Source: Sclerodactyla briareus
Lineage: Eukaryota > Echinodermata > Holothuroidea > Dendrochirotida > Sclerodactylidae
NCBI GenBank assembly: GCA_026419785.1
Contig: JAODTK010002710.1
Span: 1 to 64,000, forward strand
Length of the DNA: 64,000 bases
Reading direction: 5' to 3'
Made by a program: the position numbers and the translations under genes. Shown here piece by piece: positions 8,001 through 56,840 of this stretch (the first letter of the stretch is position 1; each line of letters begins with the position of its first letter). The notes beneath the pieces were generated by a model, which was given only the letters and a program-made list of their open reading frames with translations, was not told where the DNA came from and did no database searches.

Positions 8001-9339
8001 GCTAAGAAGGATGTATAAAAGGAGACCATTGTGGAAATAGACACCTCTAACAGGAGCTACAAGAATGCCAGTGGTCAGTATAACTATCGCTAGCATATTT
8101 CAGGTTAGAGAGAATACTGTGACCAGCACCAGCACCAATTACCGGTGCCAGAGCATGGTTGCACCTGTTCAAAAAATGTTGGTACCGCCCAAACCCACAT
8201 GGTGGAGGGAGGTCCCTCTATCAGAAAAATTGAAATGCCCCGACCCGGATCTCAGTTCGGCTCGAGCTCAGGCAACTGCATACACCAACGGACACTGCAC
8301 TGGTTTTCACGGTATTCACCCCAGACGACAGTATTGGACGTCAACCTCTGACAGTGAGTGGCAGTAGCAGTTATGAGCAGCTGGACTGGTATGTGCCCAA
8401 GGTAACCTCATAGTCGAAATCAACACCTGGGTACATGGGTAAAAGAAAAATGGCATACTAAGCCTCTAAACTAATAGGCAGGATAGACACACACTCCGAC
8501 ATTAACACCAGTGTGTGACAGTAACGCCCAACCATGCCAATACCCAAGGGTGGAAGCAAAGTCCGAACCACAAAGAGAACATAGGCCCACGGAGACAAAA
8601 AATCCTGTCTCCAAGACGATGATAGGCGCTAGCGGCCCAGAAGCGGGCAACGTTCTTTAGACTCCGATTTGAAAAGATGGACGATATTGAATAAGAGAAT
8701 TCCACGAAATGGTTCGTGCCAGAAATCGCAAAAAAATGTGCGATGTTTACGTCGAGTATGGCAAAAAATGACTGATATTGGTCATTGGTGTGGCCAGTTG
8801 TGCTGCTTTCTTTTTCTGGAATATAGCCTAAGCATACCGTTTGGTTTCAATTTACGGGTTCAGGAGCGACTAAGGCTCATCAGGAACCCTGGCCGAATTG
8901 ATCGTGTCCGAGCTCCGCAGTAGACTCGCCTTCTCTCTCACAAGTGCTCAGATGTATCGAGCAGGGGTGTCTCCGATCCCACCTGCTCCCGGGAACTGCC
9001 ATTTTAGTCCCCTCCGAAAGGACTATCAGTGACTCCAGGGCCCCACCAACTTTTCTTGGAACCTGGAGGAGCGAAGTTCAACGTGACTGCTCCAGCCCGA
9101 CCGACGAGACTTATTGTGCAAATATCCCGTAAACAAACCCCAGTACCGCAGGAAGTCCACTGTACCCCAGGGGAACCATGACGTGAATACCAAGACCTGC
9201 CGATCCCAAACGGCTAGTACAGCGCATGGGAAAAAACGTCCGGTGATGCTGTTTCCGAACCCGGGATATTTTGCTTGCAGAATGTCGCCGATACCATTCT
9301 TCTGCCGTGGTGGCAAAGGTGATTGCGAGGACATGATCC
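5058..9339 (-). other. Distal part of the last TESK intron
   Basis: The intron between the RPTF exon (10414) and the tail exon (5057). Outside the two interspersed repeats listed at 5790 and 8860 I see no exon. 6740-6980 and 8090-8380 hold CACC/CCGGT-rich low-copy sequence of unclear origin. Confidence 0.55.
5790..6330 (+). repeat. Interspersed ~540-bp repeat, copy A
   Basis: Shares long blocks with 18985-19530: TTATATCGTGG.AATGGAAAA, TAGGTCCAAACCC, GGAGAGGATCCCAA, GTTGAATAAGTCAAC and AAAGGGACTGTAACTC. No reading frame is conserved between the copies. Element class unknown. Confidence 0.75.
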
Positions 9340-9340
9340 C
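8860..9340 (+). repeat. Interspersed repeat, copy A
   Basis: Shares CTCATCAGGAACCCTGGCC, ACTCGCCTTCTCT, the GGGAACTGCCATTTTAGTCC block and a CATTCTTCTGCCG end with 34990-35440. The 62-135-codon frames over it are not conserved between the copies. Class unknown. Confidence 0.7.
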
Positions 9341-10440
9341 AGCTTCACCTGATCTTTTGTGAGCACAAGTGAGGGACATTCTTTTTCCTTTACCATCCAG
9401 ACTTGTATAATTTGCATGAAAGTGACCTTTCACCAGATCACAGCACCTTGATGAAGCTGGAGTATCTTAACTGACCTAAGCTTTTGTCAGCACAAATGAG
9501 TGACTTGCTGACATTGTATTTCTTTGTCATTAGACTCTAGTAATTGGCAATGAAGTGACCTCTTCACCAGATCACAGCACCTTGATGAAGCTGGAGTATC
9601 TAACTTACCTAGCTTTTGTTCATCAGAATGATTTACTTTTGACATTGTATTTCTTTGTCAGTAGACTCTATATAAATTGTCATGAAGTGACCCTCACCAG
9701 ATCAAGCACCTTGATGAAGCTGGAGGGATCTTAACTACCCAAGCTTTTGTCAGCACAAGTGAGTGACTTGCTGACATTGTATTTCTTTTGTCGTAGACCT
9801 ATTTAATTGGCATGAAGTGACCTCTCAACCAGATCACAGCACCTTGATGATGCTGATTATCTTAACTTACCCAAGCTTTGTCACACAAGTGAGTGAACTT
9901 GCTGACATTGTATTCTTGTGTCAGTAGACTCCTATATAATTGGCATGAAGGGCCCCTCTTCACCAGAATCACAAAACACACCATGATGAAGCTGGAGTAT
10001 CTCTTAATTAACTAACTTACCCCAATTTTGTCATCAAAGTGGGTGATTGCTGACAATTGTATTTCTTTTGGCCACAGACTCTATATCATTGGGCACGAAG
10101 GTGACCTCTCACCAGATCACAGCACATTATGATGCAGTGAAAATCAGCTTGGCCAAGCTTTCGTCAGCACAAGTGAGTGACGTGCTGACATTGTATTTCT
10201 TTTGCTAGTAGAACTCTACATAATTGGCATGAAGGTGACCACTTCACCAGATCACAGCACATCGATAAGGCAGTGAAAACTTCCAAGCTGTGTATCAGCA
10301 GAGGACTTGTGACCTTTTTCTCCCCTTTTACCAGCAGACTATGTATAATAGCATGCAGGTCGCCTCTCCACTAGATCATAGCATGTGAAAGAAGTGGAAA
10401 AATCCTAGCATACCTGCATCGGTACAAGTGAGTGACTTGC
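9340..10440. repeat. ~130-bp tandem array carrying the end of the subdomain XI exon
   Basis: About nine copies. Each holds CACCAGATCACAGCACCTTG, a GATGAAGCTGGAGTATC stretch, a GTAAG-type donor on the minus strand, and an ACAAGTGAGTGACTTGCTGA block. That last block is identical to the 3' part of the exon at 10414-10523. Copies recur near 9367, 9495, 9628, 9757, 9888, 10038, 10171, 10300 and 10427, the last being the exon itself. Copies differ by many one-base indels. Confidence 0.9.
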
Positions 10441-10523
10441 TGACGTTTGTGACATGGGAATGCCTCATTTCCCGATAACGTGCCGACGATGCTTTGGAAC
10501 GTTGGTCTCTCTTTCGGACATAC
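10414..10523 (-). CDS. TESK: TESK-like kinase, subdomain XI exon
   Basis: 110 bp, acceptor ttatcactccttctag|GTATG and donor GATGCAG|gtatgc. Reads VCPKERPTFQSIVGTLSGNE, then AFPCHKRQQVTHLYRC. PKERPTF..IV..L is the kinase subdomain XI signature with the invariant Arg that pairs with the PE glutamate. It closes the kinase domain, so the remainder is tail. It leaves two bases (AG), completed to Ser by the last exon. The final ~22 bp of the exon and the donor region recur in each unit of the tandem array that follows in the intron (9340-10440). Confidence 0.88.
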
Positions 10524-13850: not shown

Positions 13851-14545
13851 GGCAGCCCTATTGGGCAGTCCCTTGTGGAAAAGATTAAGTGACGTACTGA
13901 AATGGTACGTCGGGAGTGAACAAGCAATTAGAGCTGCATGACTGGATAGTATCGGTGGAACAAGTCACAGAATATATATTCTTGTCATTTTATTGGGCAA
14001 TTGTCATCACATGGGATCAAATTGAGAAGTACTGTTACATGATCATGCATGGAAGAAAATACTATTATATACCTTCATGCAATAGAGAGACCAACAGTAT
14101 TCAGAAGTCCTTTTCCTATGTTGGCACATCATGCGTGAAACAATGACAGCCACTAATGGTTAGTGATACTCTGCAGCCTTAACAGGGTTTTACACACTAA
14201 TCTTATACATATTTTGTTCATCCAATGCAAATATAGCGAGGCAAATTACAAGAAAAGATCAAGTCCCGCAAAGCAAACCTACAAAAAACTAACAAAAAAA
14301 CATCAGGAATTTGCCAAATATTCTGGTTGTTGGTATATGACACGCATGTCTTTCATTCATGCAAAAAACAGATTTTCATTTGTTAAACATTTGTTGGCAA
14401 ATTCTATTCAACAAGGCGAAAATTTCAACTCATAAAAATGTTTGTTTTGATTGAGAGCTATAGAGATAATCTGCTGGCACACCCAAATACTGTGGATTAA
14501 TAGTGGCACCAGAGTCGGAAAATTATTTGAATGCCCCGAGAATAT

Positions 14546-14645
14546 ACCCACCCCCCCCTTCCAGTAGCTACCCACCCCCCCCTTCCAGTAGCTACCCACC
14601 CCCCCCTTCCAGTAGCTACCCACCCCCCCATTCCAGTAGCTAGCT
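14546..14645. repeat. 24-bp minisatellite (CCCTTCCAGTAGCTACCCAC)
   Basis: Four head-to-tail copies of a C-rich 24-bp unit, differing in the C-run length. It lies in the intron between the DVFSFG and DFGLN exons. The minus-strand translation SYWKGGVG repeated is a by-product. Confidence 0.9.
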
Positions 14646-19611: not shown

Positions 19612-19688
19612 TTTGGCTTCCTCACTGCAAGACCCAGATCTGCTATGACACACTCAAAATCAAGATGTTTCCTCCGGACCAGTATATT
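19612..19688 (-). CDS. TESK: TESK-like kinase, DLG exon
   Basis: 77 bp, acceptor tttctgcag|AATATACTGG and donor CCAAA|gtaaga. Reads NILVRRKHLDFECVIADLGL then AVRKPK. This is the segment after the catalytic loop, with the catalytic-loop Asn (NILV) and the metal-binding Asp. TESK1/2 have NCLVRR......VVADFGLAEKIP here. The motif is DLG rather than DFG, a change seen in some active TKL kinases such as TGF-beta-family receptors. It starts in phase 0 and leaves two bases (AA), completed to Lys by the first base of the next exon. Confidence 0.9.
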
Positions 19689-19744
19689 CTGCAGAAAGAA
19701 TCAGAGGGGAGTCATCAATAGAAGAGCTCTTTATTGTGAACTCT

Positions 19745-21800
19745 ACAGTGAAGACCAAGAGTATTCCCAACTATTTGAATCCAAATTCATTCATGTCTCA
19801 GTGCAGTATTCCTTTAGACTTGGTTACTTCATGCCATGTTCTTAAACTCATGACTTGTGACAGCTAGGTCCTGAGGCATTTATCTTCTGAATACAACGAA
19901 CTTGTGTGTTGGCACTTAGTGGTCTATATCCATTATTCCTTTGGAATACCTTGGTATGCTTTGAGGTTTGAGGTACACCACCACATATCTAGATGGATAG
20001 GTACAAGGACAATTATACCTCTGACATACAAGAGAGGCTAGGTCTTGATGCATGAATCCTTCCGAGTGTTGGGCCTTTGGATGGGAGAAGATGACAGGCA
20101 GCAGTGCATGAACCATCTATTTAAGACATATTATGTTAACACCCAGCCAGAGTGACATATAGCTCAGCGCATTAGGCTGCCAGATCACAAGATCACAGTG
20201 AATTTGACCAAGCTGATGAATACCAAGTGAAGACCAAAGCATTCCCAACTATTTAATTTCTAAATCATTCATGTCTCAGTGCAGTATTCCTTTGGACTTG
20301 CTTACTTTATGCCATGTTTTAAACTCAATCAAACTCATGATTTGTGACAGGTCCTGTGGCATTTATCCTTTGAATTACAAGTACTTGTGATATCACTTAC
20401 ATGATAGGACAGGTCTATATCCATTATTCTTTTGGACCCAGCTGATGATTATCAAGTGCTATATTATGCTTTACATGCTTGTGAGTCTCGGTGCGTTGAT
20501 CCTTCAAAGTGTACGCTATGACACAACATGAGGAAATAAAATTGTCAAGACACCCAAGCCCATGTTGTCAATATGACTAGAGAACCTCCGAACGACAGAT
20601 GAACCCCAACTCTCCATATAAAGTTGCACAAGTTGAACATTTCCTTTTCTCATTGACATTACATGAGGCATAGGTCGCAGTGCACAAACTCTCATCAGAT
20701 TAAATGCTCATTATAATGGACGAGGACAAGGTCGCGCGCATGGAACCTTTAATGCGTGTTAGGTACATTAGAGTCATGACACAAGGAGACAGGTACCAGT
20801 GCACAAATCCTCTGTAGACTAAGTGCACCATACTATTACATACTTCAAGGATATAACCCCTAAACTATCACTTACGAGGACAGGTCGCAGTGCATGAAAC
20901 CTTAATTGTGTTAGGTATTTAGGTCATTACTCAACAAGGAGCCATTTGCCGTGCACACATCCTATACAGATTGAGTACCTCATATTCCTACTTGCGGGGA
21001 ATGGGGCAAGGACATGTTTCAGTGCATGAAACCTTCATTGTCTTAGGTACTATCAGGTCATTACTCACACAAGGAGCCAGGTCACAGGTCACAAATCCTC
21101 TACAGATTGAGTACCTGCATATTACACTTACTTGGGAGACTGGTCTCAGTGCTTTAAACCTTTCTGTGTTTAGGTTACGTCAGCATTACTCACACAAGGA
21201 GCCAGGTCACAGGTCACAAATCCTCTACAGATAAGTAACTCATGCTATTACTTGCAAGGACAGCGTTTCCCCCCTCTCAAAATGCATAAAACCTTTATGT
21301 GCTAAAGTACTTCAGTCATTACTCACAAAAAGAGCCAGGTGCAGGGTACAAACCTTCTTAGATTGAAGTACTCATATTATAACTTACTTGGGAGGGAATG
21401 GTCTCAGTGCTGAAACTTTACTGTGTAGGTACGTCAGGTCATTACTCACACAAGGAGCCAGGTCACAGGTCACAAATCCTCTACAGATAAGTAAATCATG
21501 CTATTACTTACTGTGAGAACAGGTCTTCATGCATAGGTACTTCAGTCATTACTCACACAAGTAGCTAAGTCGCAGTGTACAAGCTCTCCTACAATTAAGT
21601 ACCATCATACTATTACTCACAGGCAGCAAGGACAGCTAAGGACAGGTCGCAGTGCATGAAACCTTCATTGTGTTAGGGTCATTACTGACAAAGGAAGCCC
21701 GGACGCAGTTTACAAACCTTCACACTGAATGATTAAGTCTACTCATATACTTACTTGCGAGGACAGGTCTCGGTGCATAAACCTTGGAGTGTAAGTACTT
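19745..21800. repeat. Tandem array of decayed catalytic-loop exon ends (~60-bp monomer, ~120-bp dimer)
   Basis: Fills nearly all of the intron between the catalytic-loop exon and the DLG exon. On the minus strand one half-unit runs GTACCTAACACAATGAAGG, then TTTCATGCACTGCGACCTG, then TCCTCGCAA|gtaagt. This mirrors the true exon end at 21755-21800, which encodes KYLH.KGFMHRDLSSQ plus donor. The other half-unit (GGATTTGTGCACTGTGACC ... gtgagt) is a more diverged copy. Clear copies sit near 20730, 20890, 21020, 21140, 21290, 21420 and 21660. A longer duplication (19745-19965 and 20225-20445) occupies the distal end. Confidence 0.88.
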
Positions 21801-21903
21801 CATTGCCATCGGCGATGTCGCTGGAGAGTTGAGTCGATCAGGCCACGACAAGTACTCACGATCATCGCCAGATCAACTCTTGGAGGTTGCCGCCATTAAC
21901 ATA
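21755..21903 (-). CDS. TESK: TESK-like kinase, catalytic-loop exon (frameshifted)
   Basis: Acceptor ctccctccag|TATGTTAATGG and donor CGCAA|gtaagt. The first residues read YVNGGNLQELI, matching TEYINGG.LEQLL of TESK. In other frames the same stretch gives GDDREYLSWPDRLN, SSDIADG, MKYLHSK and, after one more base is lost, a catalytic loop of the HRDLSSQ type with the HRD arginine codon (CGA) present. Three to four single-base indels interrupt the exon, although the other exons are clean. Either this allele is broken or, more likely, the consensus is poor here because the exon abuts a tandem array made of copies of its own 3' end. The donor leaves phase 0, fitting the next exon (NILVRR). Confidence 0.75.
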
Positions 21904-30639: not shown

Positions 30640-31330
30640 CAATGTGAAACAGGTGATATTGTATTCCAGTATCAATGCTCAACCAATCAGCTGCTGTATA
30701 ACAGATAATGCAGCATGCCATGTGACCACTGATCAACCAATCAGTGCTGCATAACAGTTAATGATCAATCATGTAACATGCTACTTGAACAATGCTCAAC
30801 CAATTCAATGCTGTATATAACAAGTAATACTGCATGTCATGTTGCATGCCATACGACCATGCAATGCTCAACCAATCAGGAGTTGTATAACAGATCATGT
30901 TTTACATTCCACCTGAACAATGTTCCAGGCGAAATAGGAACCTGTCACAGTAACGTTGCATGCCATGTAACCGATCGGGAGTTGTATTATAACCGATCAT
31001 GTTGCAGCCGTGTGGAAACTGTCAAACTAATCACATGTTGCATAACTGAAGGGGTCATGTTGCTTGTCTGACACTCGACCAATCAGCTGCTGTACAACAG
31101 ATGATGCTGCATGCCATGTGACCAAAGCTTAACCAATCAGGTGTATATGATATTGCATGCTATGTGAACAATGCTCAACCAATCAGCTGCTGTATAACAG
31201 ATAATGCAGCATGCCATGTGACCAATGCTCAACCAATCAGGTGTATATGATATTGCGAGCTATGTGTCTATGTTCACCAATCCGGTGGCTGTATAACAGA
31301 TATGTTGCATGCCATGCGAACCCTACTCAG
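30640..31330. repeat. ~55-bp minisatellite with CCAAT-like motif, intron 2 of TESK
   Basis: About ten imperfect copies of a unit containing AACCAATCAG, a TGTATAACAGATAATG-type stretch and GCATGCCATGTGACC. Copies are visible at about 30680, 30735, 30797, 30868, 31077, 31132, 31178, 31232 and 31276. The array ends about 40 bp from the exon 2 donor. I see no exon-derived sequence in the unit. The CCAATCAG core matches the CCAAT box bound by NF-Y, but no function is implied by that alone. Confidence 0.85.
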
Positions 31331-31367
31331 CTAATCTGGCATCAGAAGCATGAGGTTTACCCTTTAC

Positions 31368-34400: not shown

Positions 34401-35907
34401 ATATTTGAGGGTCCTTGATGCAATCTGGTACTTTAATTTGCTGTCTTCCACAGTACTGTTGACAGAAATGTATATTTTTTGAGAAAACAAACATATTTGG
34501 GGGGGGGCATCTGGGGGGCACACAGCATACCTCCTCTTCTCATGCCCACCCTTGGTGATGCCACTGCAAACTTGCGGATATGTTATAACCTGCCAACAAA
34601 TCCAGTACAGGGATCGTTAAGAACAGGATATCAATAAATACTATCATTCCTCTCTAGTATCCAGGAATCACAAACCTTCACCGAGGAGAATGAATTGTGT
34701 GTAATCCGATCGATCTGCAAAGCTTGGTAGAACTCAAGCAAAAGATCCGGATGGACTGGCCATCCAGAATAAATGGGAGAAACTGGGTTGTCTTGTGTGT
34801 GCAGTAGATATTCAGAGGTTTGCTGGTACTAGAGGCTGATGAATGGGGCCTACACTTGAAGGAAAACTTGATCAGGTTGTCCAGAAGATTTGCTTCCGAA
34901 GTTTCCGGATATGAAGTGAATATTGTCCGCCCAACTCATGTCAACATGAATGTGATGATGATAAGCTCAGATCAGATTAAATTTGATTTGATTTCCACGG
35001 GTAAGCCAGCCAAGAAAGGCTCATCAAGGAACCCTGGCCATATTGATCTCGGATGATAGCCATAACTCGCCTTCTCTTCAAAACTAATGCTCGGGTGTTA
35101 TCAAGGAAGTTGTGAAATCATTCGCTATCTGCACCCGGGACTGCCGTTTAATGTCCCCTCTGGAAGGGAGATCCGTGAACTCCAGTCCACTTCCTCAGAA
35201 CCTGGGGAAGCGGAAGAATTATGTCCAACGGACTGATCACAGCCAACCGATGGGACATATTGCATTATCTCTGAAGAAACCATGCACAAATCCACTGAAC
35301 CATAGTGAAATGATGGAGTGAAGTGTAGCCACCCAGAAAAAAAAAAGTCCGGTGACTTTGGGATTGGAACCTGGAATTTTTTCTTTTTTTTTGCAAAACA
35401 TCAATGATAGCACTCAGCCATTCTTCTGCCGGGAAGAGAAACACGACAAGCAATTAGCTGGTTCATGAGGCTCTGTAGGTTATCCTCCTCCGCATGGGCA
35501 GTATGAGCTGGTCCACTCTTTTTACCAGAGACACTCTGACTTCAACCCCTCCACGACCTGTAGTCTTAGACAATATCGCACATACAAATCCTGATGTTAT
35601 CTTCCCTTGGACCATGAAAACATGCTATTTTGGGCAACCTTCTTTCAACAGATGCATCCTGACTTTCAACATCATCTCATGCCTCCCACCAGCCCTAAGA
35701 CCCCCCCCCCCACTGACCTCTCCCAGCAACTAAGTGACAAAACAACCCCACCCCAACCCCACCCCCCAACTCATTTTCCGCAGCCTCAGTATGGCCAATC
35801 TACATGCTATGGTTTTGTGTATAACAAATCAACAAGACAGTTATGTGATTGTCTCCTCACTTCTGTGGACTTGCAGGAAGGCAATTTTCACCACTAACAA
35901 TGTTGGC
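31490..35907 (-). other. TESK intron 1, unique part
   Basis: 31800-31910 holds inverted GGTTAGTCGGTTAAACC / CGGACTAACCGAGTC motifs, possibly one end of a small DNA transposon. 33598-34014 is a 138-codon plus frame that looks like transposon debris. 34500-34520 is a G run. Apart from the separately listed repeat at 34990, no exon was found here. Confidence 0.5.
34990..35440 (+). repeat. Interspersed repeat, copy B
   Basis: Partner of 8860-9340: GGCTCATCAAGGAACCCTGG, AACTCGCCTTCTCT, GGGACTGCCGTTTAATGTCC and GCCATTCTTCTGCCG. Lies in TESK intron 1, next to the triplicated array. Confidence 0.7.
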
Positions 35908-37372
35908 ATCAAGGGGCTGGATAGTCAGATACTGACCCTTTTTTTTTCAAAACAAATATTTGTCGGGGAGAGTCGGGGAGAGATTTCTTCCCAGTTTTTG
36001 GACTTCTTTCAACATCTCAGCTGATATCAACATTATTGCTGATTGGAATCCCCTCTTGGCTTTGAAAAACCCTCTGTTAAAAGATTCCCTAAGGGAAATT
36101 CCCAACCAGACTCATTCCTTAGCACTGGCATGGGTAGAGAGGCTGTATTAATATTTGAAGTAGGTCCTACCACCTTAAGCTCTATCACCCACCCCCCTCA
36201 CTCACACCATCTTTTCACAGGGTGGGATGGTGGAATCACAGGCCTGAGGCATGCCCCGGTCATACAGATGACTAGAAGGGGGGGGTGGCTGGTACCACCC
36301 GACACCTAGCAACTAGATAACGTGATAGTCTTCCAACATCATGTGAATCACGCTAACACAATTTCTCTGGTCTACATACCTTATACACAACTGACATCAA
36401 GGGGCTGGATAGTCAGATACTGACCCTTTTTTTTTTTCAAAACAAATATTTGTCGGGGAGAGATTTCTTCCCAGTTTTTGGACTTCTTTCAACATCTCAG
36501 CTGATATCAACATTATGCTGATTGGAATCCCCTCTTGGCTTTGAAAAACCCTCTGTTAAAAGATTCCCTAAGGGAAATTCCCAACCAGACTCATTCCTTA
36601 GCACTGGCATGGGTAGAGAGGCTGTATTAATATTTGAAGTAGGTCCTACCACCTTAAGCTCTATCACCGCCTCACCCTATCCACCCACCCCCCTCACTCA
36701 CACCATCTTTTCACAGGGTGGGATGGTGGAATCACAGGCCTGAGGCATGCCCCGGTCATACAGATGACTAGAAGGGGGGGGGGGGTGGCTGGTACCACCC
36801 GACACCTAGCAACTAGATAACGTGATAGTCTTCCAACATCATGTGAATCACGCTAACACAATTTCTCTGGTCTACATACCTTATACACAACTGACATCAA
36901 GGGGCTGGATAGTCAGATACTGACCCTTTTTTTTTTCAAAACAAATATTTGTCGGGGAGAGATTTCTTCCCAGTTTTTGGACTTCTTTCAACATCTCAGC
37001 TGATATCAACATTATGCTGATTGGAATCCCCTCTTGGCTTTGAAAAACCCTCTGTTAAAAGATTCCCTAAGGGAAATTCCCAACCAGACTCATTCCTTAG
37101 CACTGGCATGGGTAGAGAGGCTGTATTAATATTTGAAGTAGGTCCTACCACCTTAAGCTCTATCACCCACCCCCCTCACTCACACCATCTTTTCACAGGG
37201 TGGGATGGTGGAATCACAGGCCTGAGGCATGCCCCGGTCATACAGATGACTAGAAGGGGGGGGTGGCTGGTACCACCCGACACCTAGCAACTAGATAACG
37301 TGATAGTCTTCCAACATCATGTGAATCACGCTAACACAATTTCTCTGGTCTACATACCTTATACACAACTGA
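35908..37372. repeat. Three near-identical ~490-bp tandem copies spanning the TESK exon 1 donor
   Basis: Copies start at 35908, 36395 and 36895 (periods 487 and 500) and are almost identical, differing mainly by short insertions: an extra GGGGAGAGTC-type stretch in copy 1, about 20 bp in copy 2, and the length of T and G runs. Each copy ends with the last 15 nt of exon 1 (minus-strand TCAGTTGTGTATAAG) and its gtatgt donor. Only the copy at 37358 is attached to the rest of the exon. Open frames of 73-88 residues inside the copies are repeat by-products. The high identity implies a recent event. Confidence 0.95.
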
Positions 37373-51700: not shown

Positions 51701-53511
51701 TGGGGGGAGGGGGGGGGGGGCAAGTCCGAGTGGCTGTACCAGCCTCTGCACTGGGGGGGGGGGAAGCAATAAGAAAATAGGGGAAATTTTGGGGGGAAGG
51801 GTAAAGAGACGATACGACCACACGATCTGATCAATGAGAATTTATTTCAACATTCTATTGAATTTGTGATGCCACACCCTTATATAATTTAACTACACTT
51901 GACTTGAACAGACCATCAAGCCAAGGGGTAACAGTTGTAGGGAATGAGGAACACTGCTTGCACTCAAACCTTCAGTACATCATCCATTAGGGCTAGTTAC
52001 ATCTGTTTTGTAGGGAGTCAAGCACAATTATATTGGTTCCCAGGTACCGATAGCACACCATTACATGGCAGACATTATTTACACAGCTAGGCAATGGACA
52101 AACAAGATATAGCAGGCAAGTCACATACCACAATGACAGTGTGGGTGTATATATGACTTCAGATCTTTGAACCCTGTTAAGAAAGTGATTTAAAGCACCA
52201 AAGACCATGTTAAACTCATAAAGAGCATGGTGTCATCGCGTTCATCTAGATGGGAAACTACAATCGTTTCAGATCCCTGGCTCGATGCTAGCTAGGCACA
52301 GTCCAGTCACTGAATGTAATCTGTAGGGGCAACTTCATCAGGCTGACATGTTTTGGAGCCTCAGTAGTCACCAACTGTGGCAGTAGTCGATCAAAAACTT
52401 CTTTTCTGAAATCAGGGCCAATTCTCATGCCTACCAGAAAATAATTTTACTAATATATATATATATATGTTACTAACACTAATTGAAATAAATATTGTGT
52501 CTTCATTTTCAATTGAGGCCATCAAATTGTGCGTTTGTGGTGCTTGCTGTTACTCAATCTTGCAGCCGTGCTCCTGATTCTGTACAGTTTAGCTCATCAT
52601 TCTTGGGAAATCAAACTTTCGGTATTTTATCAACTTGTTAGGTGCCCTGAAAATTTATAAAACAATTATAAAATAAAACTTTTGGAGATCTCTTACCAAT
52701 ATTAATAGATCAATCATCAAAAATCAAATCCAGTAATTTGGGGCACATATTGGAATTTCTTCTATGTTGCTCAAGTACACTAAATAGCAACTTACGCAGC
52801 CAGCTAATAAAAACCGCGATACCAAATATTGTTGATGTTGATCCATGACTGCCTTTAACAGAGACTATTATTCAGTGCGGTTCTGTATGACTACCTTTTC
52901 ATGTTAAGGACATAGGACTACATTTCTATGTATCACATAAAGTGTTGTTGGTAGAACAGACAACTGCCAATTGAGGACAAAGATGTTGAAATCATGACGG
53001 CGTGTTTTACCCTTATCCTGCTGAGGACAGGCTTCATTTTGCATTTTGTTCTGCAGGAGTGGTCACCGTGACTGTATGAGATGAGATGAAACACCATCCC
53101 TCCAGTCCACCATGACAACATTCTGCAATATAAGTTAGGGTTGCAAATTCAAGGCACCTGATTGGCTGAGATGTATCATTTTGAAATTTGGTTTATAGAG
53201 CACCCTCACTGGGGACATGTCCACTACAGCTTGATAAGGGTTAGAAAACGGCACTACATACACAATACTGTCATGTGGCGGGCTCGTGCCCAATGATGAG
53301 AACTGTTTTCCCAAGTTTCATACATCACAATAAATTAATAACTTGGATAGACAGGGTTGAGATTTAGAAGCTATGCAAGTTCTCCCTTTTTCAAATAAAT
53401 TCCTCATGCTGAAAATTAATATTATAAGTTTAAAAATATGCATGTTCTGAGATTAGAACATCCACAGTGGGCAAAAGACTTATAACATAAACAAGCTGTT
53501 TTTTTATATTT
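48743..53511. other. Mostly unrecognised sequence with weak exon candidates
   Basis: A plus frame at 48895-48980 (VKDADQFFEAKEQEGDEVIG, ending AAAG|gtacg) and a 123-codon plus frame at 49395-49766 followed by AATAAA at 49862 could be pieces of a plus-strand gene, but neither has a recognised family. C/G runs lie at 49840, 51285 and 51710-51765. A short TA repeat is at 52454-52468. Confidence 0.4.
50003..50253 (-). CDS. Candidate minus-strand exon, unknown protein
   Basis: Open minus frame flanked by ttctgtcctttcag(cag) and GCAAACC|gtgagt, both good splice signals. Reads LQLVIHNCSFNFVRQDSPRA, ISRIAFSALRRENVSILKAS and CMPGNYGSVNEIWNGRSANR. Several Cys and a possible N-glycosylation site suggest an extracellular protein, but I recognise no domain. 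Confidence 0.3.
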
Positions 53512-54725
53512 TGACAGTTGCACTTCATTTGGATAGTTGCAATATTCATATTAGCATTATTTCCATAACAACTGATAACTACTATGTACAGTTTTCAACA
53601 TCAAGAATACAGCAACAATAAAGCAATGTCATTCGTAGTCTGTGTATCCTGTTAGAAGTTGAAGTCTATGACTCTATGTACACCAAGCACAGTATGGCTC
53701 CCATACATATAACTACACAGTCTATGTCAGAGCCCCTCTCCCTTCCCTAATCTCTTGCTGAAAAATCCAAATAATGGACACTTTAGGACTAATCACAACC
53801 ATGCTGCTTTAAGGCTTGTCTCAGGTTAAGGCCTAAAAAAAGAAATTGCTTGTTTGTCCTCCACCGCCCGCTCGGAATTTTCCTTCCCTCTGAACATATT
53901 TTTACTTTCAATACTTTTTTTAATTTCTTGTTCCGCTTGCAAAATATTACATTTCCATCACAAAAAACTCTCCCTGTTCGATCGTCGACTTAACACACAT
54001 TCTGACCCAATCATACACATACCTGTGGGATTATGCCAGTCCGTGACGGCGTGACTCATCGATCAAAACTGTTCTGTCTCAGGACTGTCCTACCCTGCTC
54101 TAATTTCCCCGAAATACTACTCCCGCACTTACTATTAAAGTTGTTGTAGCCTAGAACAGGAAACGTTGGAGCCGCGCGATGCACGGCGGTGCTATGGAAA
54201 TGGCTTGGAAACGTTCATCACACAGATCAAATTACTGACTGGGCCTGGGCTGCATGGTTCGCCGCGACAATGCATTTATCACACGTGCCAGACGGCACTA
54301 CTCTCCTAAACTTTTGGAGCACTATACAGTGTTGCCACTTCGCACCTGAGATGTAAGAATAGTGAAAGTTTTGCAATAAAATTTCTGAATGAAAAAACAA
54401 CAATCATTGCAACAACATAGGAAATTTGAGCATAATCCCTTCACGATCAGTGTGAACTGTCAAATTCCTGTCAAAGAAAATAAACCTTCAGCCCTATAAA
54501 TTTTAATAGTGTTCTCATACAAATGGTAGCAACGCTGATGAGAGCGACAACACAGTGTGGGCTGATAGCACTTCTTCATGTATATTCTTGCAACTCGCCG
54601 AGCGTGCGGCGTGCGCTCCCGGTCACCACTCAAGTAGTTGTGATACTACAAAGTGCCGATCACTATAGTACTAGCAGGGGTCTAACTGGGTCGTACACGC
54701 TCTGGATCAGTGTTTCGCGCTAGGA
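53512..54725. repeat. ~1.2-kb direct duplication, copy A
   Basis: Begins TGACAGTTGCACTTCATTTG and matches 55603-56840 along its whole length: CATAACAACTGATAACTAC, TAATCTCTTGCTGAAAAATC, AGGAAACGTTGGAGCCGCGC and CCTATAAATTTTAATAGTG. The copies differ mainly by single-base indels. No convincing frame is shared, so function is unknown. Confidence 0.88.
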
Positions 54726-55602
54726 TCATTTTTGGGAGGGAATTCCCTCCCAAGAATTTTTTTTGGAAGGGATTTTCCAGAAATCTAGGAGGGACCTAAT
54801 CTTCCGGCCATTTTTCGCACAAGTTCCCTAACAAAGTTCAGGGGGCAACAAAAAATAACTTTAGATTAACTAAAACCTCATGACTGCCCTGTGGTAACGA
54901 CATTATACGAGCGTCCCTTATACTTAACTAACTCATGCACTCTTAATAAGCCTATATATTGTGTTTGGTCATTAGACCTAAATACCCTGGTATCTGAGAT
55001 TATTTTCAAATCCTACAGCACCAAAAAAGGTACCATATCCACCGGAAGGCACATCTTTCATCGGCAATTTTTTTCTGAAAAATTAAAAATAACAAAACAA
55101 TAAATATAAAATTTTTTTCAGAAAAATTGACAAAATCGAAATAATTATTACCATTAATTCAGAGGGTAGGACTATGCTGTTGAATTCGCTATCACTTTGT
55201 TACTGAGCCCAGTTCAGCCTAAAACTAAAATCCACGGTCTGAAGACACCTCATGAATAATGTGCTTCAGACGTTGGTGAAAAGTATTAATATTAATTCCA
55301 CCATGTGATGTTATTTGAGAAAAAATCAATTGCAGTTGTTTACTACGTTATTTCACAGTGATTTGCTACAGAGCACAGGTCATAATAGAATTTGTACCTG
55401 TGCTAGTTGTGTGAAATGTCAACGAGAGGCACTAGTTGCTCAATCATAATACCCACATGCTGTGTGCATATGTCTGACTGATAGTAAAATGTTTTCACCC
55501 ATGTCCTGCAACGTTCAACGATGTATGCATGCAAAAAGCGTGCATGTGCTAAATCGCCGTCCGACCGCAAAATGTATATTGAATGCGTTTTTTTCGATTT
55601 GA
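54726..55602. other. Spacer between the 1.2-kb copies
   Basis: AT-rich sequence with GGGAGGGAATTCCCTCCC, a 9-bp-arm palindrome at about 54734-54751. No gene recognised. Confidence 0.5.
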
Positions 55603-56840
55603 ACAGTTGCATTCATTTGGATAGTTGCAATATTCAGATTAGCATTCTTTCATAACAACTGATAAATACTTGTACAGTTTCAACATTTCAAGAAATAGCA
55701 ACAATAAAAGCAAAATGTCAGTCGTTAGTCTGGTATCCGTGTTAAAGTTGAAGTTATGACTCTATGTACCACAAGACAGTATGGCTCCAATATATATAAC
55801 TACACAGTCGATTTCACCCCCATCCTCCCCTAATCTCTTGCTGAAAAATCCAAATAATGTACATTAGGATAATCAACAACCAGCTGCCTTTACGGCTTGT
55901 CTCAGGTTAAGGCCTAAAAAAGAAATTGATTGTGTGTCCTCCACCGCCGCACGATCGGATTTCTTCCTAGGGAACATATTTTTACTTTCAATAAACTTTT
56001 TAATTTCTTGTCCGCTTGAAAAATTTAGTACATGGACATCAAAAAAACTTCTCCATGGGCGATCGTGTTTCGTAACACAACATTATGACCAATAATTACA
56101 CATACATGTGGGATTATGCCAGTTCCGTGCGGCGCGTTGATAATCATCGATTCTTCAAAACTTTCTGTCTATGACCTGTCCTACCCTTTCTCTAATTTCC
56201 CCGAAATACTACCCACGCACTTACAGTTCAAAAGTTGTTGGAGCCGAGAACAGGAAACGTTGGAGCCGCGCGATGCACGGCGGTTGCTATGTAAATGGCT
56301 TGGAAACGTGCATCACACAGAATCAAATTACTGCCTGGGCCCTGGGCGCATGTATCGCGGAGGACAATGCATTTATCCACGTGCCCGACGGGCAGGCACT
56401 ACCTTACTAAACTTTTGGAGCACCTCAGTGTTGTCAGTCATGTGACTTCGCCACTATTGAAGATTTTGAATGATGTAGTGATAGTTTTGCAATAAAATTT
56501 CTGAATGCAAACAACAACAATCACCTGCAACAACATAGGAAATTTGAGCATAATACCTTCACGATCGTGTGAATGTCAAATTCCTGTCAAAGAAATTAAA
56601 CCTTCAGCCCTATAAATTTTAATAGTGTTCTCATAAAAAATGTAGAGCACGCGATGGGCGACCCACCGTGTGGGGCTGATTAGCATCTTCGAGGTATATT
56701 TCTTGACAACCTCCCGAGGAGTTGCGGGTGCGGGCACTCCCGGCACCACTCAAAGTGTAGTTTTTGATTATACAAAGTGCCAATCACTATAGTACTAGAA
56801 GGGTCTCAAAACCTGGGTCGTACACGCTCGGAGAGTCGGA
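55603..56840. repeat. ~1.2-kb direct duplication, copy B
   Basis: Second copy, same orientation, 880 bp after copy A. The CGCGCGATGCACGGCGG block is intact in both and is the most CpG-rich part, so both could be copies of a promoter or element end. Flanking homology stops at TACACGCTC near the right end. Confidence 0.88.

Follow-up and report, generated by a model that had tools for sequence, protein, structure and literature searches.

Minisatellite-like tandem duplications of exon-intron boundaries have been described in a paper on amphioxus globin genes, and had earlier been named 'mirages' at Adh3 (PMC3087553). Their units measure 10-72 bp at Adh3 and 150-160 bp in the globin genes BflGb6 and BflGb9, and many of them, but not all, keep the splice signals (PMC3087553). 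From the Adh3 data and from RT-PCR of the globins, the authors suggest that regular splicing is undisturbed (PMC3087553). Repeats of 60 bp and 108 bp have been reported at PGBD5, with TnC cited as a further case (PMC3902484), and in the potato RdRp gene a tandem duplication crossing an exon-intron boundary led to a new intron (PMC4974935). The type of structure treated here is already known in the form of the amphioxus mirages (PMC3087553, PMC3902484), and it has been little studied.

Two introns of one kinase gene in the DNA analysed here carry arrays that resemble the amphioxus mirages, as far as the cited sections describe them: intronic tandem copies span an exon-intron boundary, many units keep the splice signal, and the published unit sizes (10-72 and 150-160 bp) bracket the units at this locus. 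The first array consists of 15 diverged copies, whereas the two BflGb6 haplotypes have 6 and 3 units, which are 81-100% alike. The amphioxus cases were followed at the RNA level, the present arrays in genomic sequence. By their structural features the present arrays can be classed as 'mirage' minisatellites of the donor side.

The window, by which we mean the whole stretch of 64,000 nucleotides that was analysed (64 kb), carries the host kinase gene on its minus strand, where six stretches can be read as successive pieces of a kinase domain. These pieces, and the 5' splice site of the intron that holds the first array, are given below.

31489-31368, minus strand: upstream kinase exon (VTHRTTGEVLVMKMSQ...HHPNILR; GEVLVMK...HHPNILR), from Pfam
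21755..21872, minus strand: catalytic-loop kinase exon, subdomain VIb (...EYLSWPDRLN-SSDIADG-MKYLHSK-FMHRDLSSQ), from Pfam and PDB; the upper bound 21872 is the stop-to-stop limit of the frame and not a located exon start
21749..21754, minus strand: authentic 5' splice site CAA/GTAAGT, first intron base 21754, by sequence
19612..19688, minus strand: next kinase exon (NILVRRKHLDFECVIADLGLAVRKPK), starting at 19688, by sequence
17730-17605, minus strand: open stretch containing the kinase piece VLPVVGTPYWISPECLHGKFYGPE
16369-16112, minus strand: open stretch containing a kinase piece (28 protein letters)
10414..10523, minus strand: probable exon further along in the kinase gene (VCPKERPTFQSIVGTL...), with the donor GATGCAG/GTATGC; kinase subdomain XI by eye

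Four of the six pieces matched a Pfam kinase family at E≤1, and among them the catalytic-loop exon scored best (PK_Tyr_Ser-Thr, 3.9e-7). No Pfam match was obtained for the NILV...RKPK piece, and exon 10523-10414, searched alone, gave no Pfam kinase match and only an unrelated weak one. When the catalytic-loop exon was joined to the next exon, the PDB search returned LIMK1 (LIM kinase 1) at 2.6e-9; one score was better, that of a two-domain EGFR chain (3.9e-11). Judged from these comparisons, the host gene is a LIMK/TESK-like protein kinase; it may be a TESK rather than a LIMK.

The sequence-only reading had proposed that the catalytic-loop exon ends with codons for KYLH.KGFMHRDLSSQ followed by gtaagt, and that the next exon lies at 19688. 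Both were borne out on the minus strand, the former as ...MKYLHSK-(G)FMHRDLSSQ and GTAAGT, but the exon is frame-broken in the assembly: to read LSWPDRLN, SSDIADG, MKYLHSK and FMHRDLSSQ in succession, the frame must be shifted three times in ~50 bp. Internal stops were found in 30 of the 129 exon-match rows of the assembly (10/36, 0/4, 1/8, 2/8, 11/39 and 6/34), some of the rows referring to one and the same exon. Indels in the assembly are the likeliest cause of the frame breaks; the frame-broken catalytic-loop exon may, alternatively, be decaying. No second copy of either the array intron or the exon end turned up when the whole assembly was searched, and an Rfam scan of the 64-kb window returned 0 matches.

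The intron between the catalytic-loop exon and the next exon contains the first array and, beyond it, remnants of the same unit.

20657..21742, minus strand: tandem array in which a ~62-bp unit occurs 15 times in direct orientation, each time at E<1e-3, by profile HMM
20021..20418, minus strand: degenerate copies that match the unit weakly, 20070-20027 at E=0.0024 and 20415-20391 at E=0.025, by profile HMM

The ~62-bp unit comprises the exon end, the donor and the first intron bases, its exonic part being the last ~46 bp of the catalytic-loop exon (21800-21755). The profile HMM was seeded with 10 intron monomers, picked by a donor-like pattern and with the exon left out, and in the 64-kb window it gave 16 matches at E<1e-3, namely the 15 intron copies and the exon end. 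This exon-free profile matched 21800-21748, the exon end plus donor, at E=2.2e-9, and the exon end still at E=2.3e-6 when the donor columns were cut from the profile. The similarity, which might have been limited to one copy, is therefore shared by 15 intron copies and extends beyond the donor consensus. Three further profile matches at E<1 all fall within the array intron, and outside this intron and its exon no match at E<1 was found in the 64-kb window. All copies are direct and on the strand of the gene. The exon end (21800-21748) is itself the outermost copy and the next one lies at 21742-21679, so that the array abuts the authentic boundary. Monomers of two types, ending in ...GTAAGT and ...GTGAGT, follow each other in rough alternation and so form a dimer of ~125 bp, and TRF detected a period of 256 over 21023-21509 only.

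These results confirm, at the level of sequence, that an array of exon end and donor exists, and they modify its description. A ~60-bp monomer had been thought to fill the next 2 kb; the unit length holds at ~62 bp, but the clear array covers ~1.1 kb and not 2.1 kb. The proposal that the monomers share the layout of the exon stands for the DNA, donor included, but the protein motif GF(M/V)H.DL is literal in only 3 intron copies (starts 21663, 20901 and 20059), and the relation of unit to exon is one that holds at the DNA level. There is no need to regard the copies as mini-exon remnants: the unit is a ~46-bp exon end, with the acceptor outside it.

The proposed growth of the array out of the exon fared well. 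The profile homology (both E values above), together with the kinase constraint on the exon, supports a derivation of the first array from the end of the catalytic-loop exon and its donor. The exon is bound by the conservation of a kinase catalytic loop, and the array is free of it; since the two are homologous, the direction runs from exon to array. The founding event is unreadable from the sequence because the copies are ~65-90% alike. Their divergence bears on whether the repeats could be false products of a noisy long-read assembly (the long-read nature is our guess). The broken exon frame and the stops in the exon-match rows do suggest indel errors, but the copies differ by roughly 10-35% and fall into two types, and comparable arrays are found on other contigs, each time with the local exon sequence. 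We know of no case in which misassembly created divergent arrays of short units, and an artefact of this sort is extremely unlikely.

The acceptor half of the array intron has a ~200-bp direct repeat of its own (19747-19945 and 20226-20436, 77%), with no clear kinship to the exon-derived unit.

A tandem duplication of an exon piece containing AGGT might have created the intron itself, the array being what remains of that event; the model and cases of it are known, to judge from the cited parts of the two reports (PMC4974935, PMC3087553). In that case the acceptor end should be a copy of the unit. No profile match at E<1 was found near the acceptor at 19689, and a BLAST comparison on the acceptor side showed no similarity between the start of the next exon (19688) and the preceding intron. 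In potato RdRp, as there described, a new intron arises (PMC4974935), whereas at this locus an intron already present has been lengthened, with the acceptor lying outside the unit. Intron gain is thus very improbable at this locus, and birth of the intron by duplication was rejected on the ground that its acceptor end is outside the repeat unit.

Each copy had further been regarded as a potential decoy donor. As sequence this applies to part of the array and not to every copy: exact GTRAGT is kept in 9 of the 17 minus-strand intron copies detected at E<0.1 with the donor-free profile, and this share is biased upward, since that profile uses the same 10 seeds, chosen by a donor-like pattern. 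On the minus strand, GTRAGT sites of the array start at 21556, 21511, 21449, 21387, 21326, 21193, 21131, 21068 and 20875. Read-through past the first donor gives V-S-I-stop, so that splicing from any donor further on would yield a truncated kinase. Competition among the repeated donors for U1 snRNP could then regulate how the kinase transcript is spliced, and might for instance give truncated forms. The human IFI6 (6-16) minisatellite, reportedly described by Turri, Cuin and Porter in 1995, is said to supply multiple splice donor sites; it would resemble the present array in that donors recur in tandem at the end of an exon, and would differ from it in that its unit is much shorter and its donors are used. 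Other studies deal with minisatellites and alternative splicing in C. elegans and with tandem repeats in human segmental duplications. A functional decoy array is nevertheless unlikely here. The donor is lost in about half of the copies, the count of those kept is inflated by the choice of seeds, and the amphioxus cases, in the published sections cited, go with normal splicing (PMC3087553, PMC3902484).

The same gene carries a second array, in the intron that follows its probable later exon.

9335..10382, minus strand: second array, in the intron after exon 10523-10414; its ~131-bp unit is present in seven clear copies at 10258-9335 and in one degenerate copy at 10382-10258

Its unit contains the exon end AACGTCAGCAAGTCACTCACTTGTACCGA, as AA(C/T)GTCAGCAAGTCACTCACTTGT..., and a donor-like GTAAGT. 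Against its own exon end, the best copy is identical at 26 of 29 positions (BLAST, 1.2e-4; intron-only profile, 1.3e-4); against the exon end plus the intron start, BLAST gave 5.1e-7. Copies of the boundary were present at 2/4 donors and 0/3 acceptors located in the host gene, a test that left out two further donors of the gene (exons KFYGPE and LPRTM). Exon 31489-31368 had copies of neither its donor nor its acceptor in the adjoining 2 kb. Directly after this exon lies another tandem array (30648-31339, with 46/100-bp units), in which similarity to the exon end was looked for and none was found.

Recurrence at other exons was analysed in a sample of Pfam exon matches from the genome, comprising kinases, ABC transporters, kinesins, myosins and tyrosine phosphatases. 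The loci taken were 30 of 36 for PF07714, 30 of 39 for PF00069 (two already in the set, 28 new), 20 of 34 for PF00102, and all of those for PF00005 (4/4), PF00225 (8/8) and PF00063 (8/8), in total 98 loci, which merged into 90 exons. Repeats overlapped the exon on the donor side in 4/90 exons (L007, L012 and L056 clearly, L040 weakly) and on the acceptor side in 1/90 (L047). Repeats lying wholly within the 800 bp of flank were seen downstream of 14/90 exons and upstream of 8/90. With intron-only profiles, the exon end was matched at E=1.2e-18 in L007 (...LMITEYLDW/GTAAGG), at E=1.5e-11 in L012 (...HEHKILH/GTATGT; 15 exonic bases in the match) and at E=2.2e-30 in L056 (...DELFTQAIN/GTAAGT). The weak case, the kinesin exon L040 (...KLHMVDLA/GTGAGT), reached E=4.5e-4 with a profile made from one copy. 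In-frame stops are present in L012 (TGA) and L056 (TAG). Together with the two in the host kinase gene, these make six donor-side introns in five genes, one of them weak. The locus had implicitly been presented as a single odd intron; instead, several introns of the genome carry such arrays, of a kind known from amphioxus, and six of them in one genome suggest that this type of array is common in such genomes.

In L056 (1507-2290, kinase exon APEVILRQGYGKPVDWW...) the ~180-bp copies take in most of the matched exon piece. The in-frame TAG (VVL-stop-EF) is common to copies 1-3, and copy 4 reads VVLYEF. Which copy is the working exon is ambiguous; it may be one of them, or none.

The acceptor-side repeat of L047 (1624-1870) overlaps the first part of a myosin exon match, with 64.7% identity, and is possibly a 3' boundary mirage. 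Both 5' and 3' boundaries are likewise affected in the amphioxus mirages, in the sections cited above. In L039, a kinesin intron whose exon is on the minus strand, a tandem array begins ~36 bp past the donor and contains no exon sequence. By eye, the repeats begin beyond the exon end in all six loci with repeats ≤150 bp past the match end (L014, L039, L050, L067, L068 and L090), the exon ends of L014, L068 and L090 being uncertain.

It could be argued that 5' splice sites, for instance through RNA-DNA hybrids or breaks, start arrays more often than other places do. The six introns in five genes (one weak) all start on the donor side, and arrays overlap 4/90 donors against 1/90 acceptors, numbers that are too small to prove an asymmetry. 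Direct repeats, counted at E<1e-3 with neighbouring copies ≤400 bp apart, covered 10.2% of the downstream flank bases of the 90 exons, 7.6% of the upstream ones and 2.7% of the bases inside the exon matches. In the nearest 100 bp, coverage was 6.4% after the match end and 1.5% before the match start, the distances being counted from the ends of the Pfam matches and not from proven splice sites. The value after the match end is lower than the mean of the downstream flank, and donors are not enriched for repeats in the 90-exon sample. The low coverage before the match start would follow if splicing suffered more from copies at acceptors than from copies at donors, and such stronger selection at acceptors fits the difference between donors and acceptors. 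Seeding of arrays by splice sites is therefore improbable. Since there is no excess of repeats near donors, chance straddling together with tolerance suffices.

We consider it probable that an ordinary tandem duplication straddled a donor, that it was tolerated since the first donor still yields an intact exon, and that minisatellite-like growth followed. At the first array, a short tandem duplication would have covered the 3' end of the catalytic-loop exon, the 5' splice site and the first intron bases. As long as the spliceosome went on joining the outermost donor, which is the first one, to the old acceptor, the mRNA would stay as it was and the additional copies would become part of the intron. 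Unequal exchange or slippage may then have multiplied the copies, from monomer to A/B dimer and to a higher-order unit of ~256 bp, and mutation would have eroded them. We infer in this way the mechanism of duplication, its neutrality and the persistence of normal splicing. If the host exon, L012 and L056 were decaying rather than hit by indels, 'tolerated' would mean something else.

An intron with nine intact near-copies of its own donor near the true one is a natural test of the choice of the first 5' splice site. Such introns bear on how introns lengthen, and their number in a genome can be determined from gene models and RNA-seq. They are also a trap for gene prediction, in which exon ends that recur together with donors are apt to be called as false exons. 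If the host is not a cephalochordate, mirages are a wider kind than the cited sections describe (PMC3087553, PMC3902484). Searches for the GFP family and for a piece of B. floridae huntingtin gave no match, a blank outcome that carries no weight either way, and no COX1 turned up. Tentatively, and short of an even chance, boundary-spanning mirage arrays could be a recurrent, genome-wide mode of intron growth in another animal lineage, beyond the lancelets, affecting a few percent of exons and leaving arrays of live 5' splice sites, on which the preference of the spliceosome for the outermost donor could be measured.

The window contains other repeats as well. A long-unit tandem array of three ~490-bp units, 94-97% alike, occupies 35907-37372; a 1.2-kb direct duplication, 82% identical, is formed by 53498-54702 and 55587-56829; and a 24-bp repeat at 14545-14642 has 4.1 copies with 98% matches.
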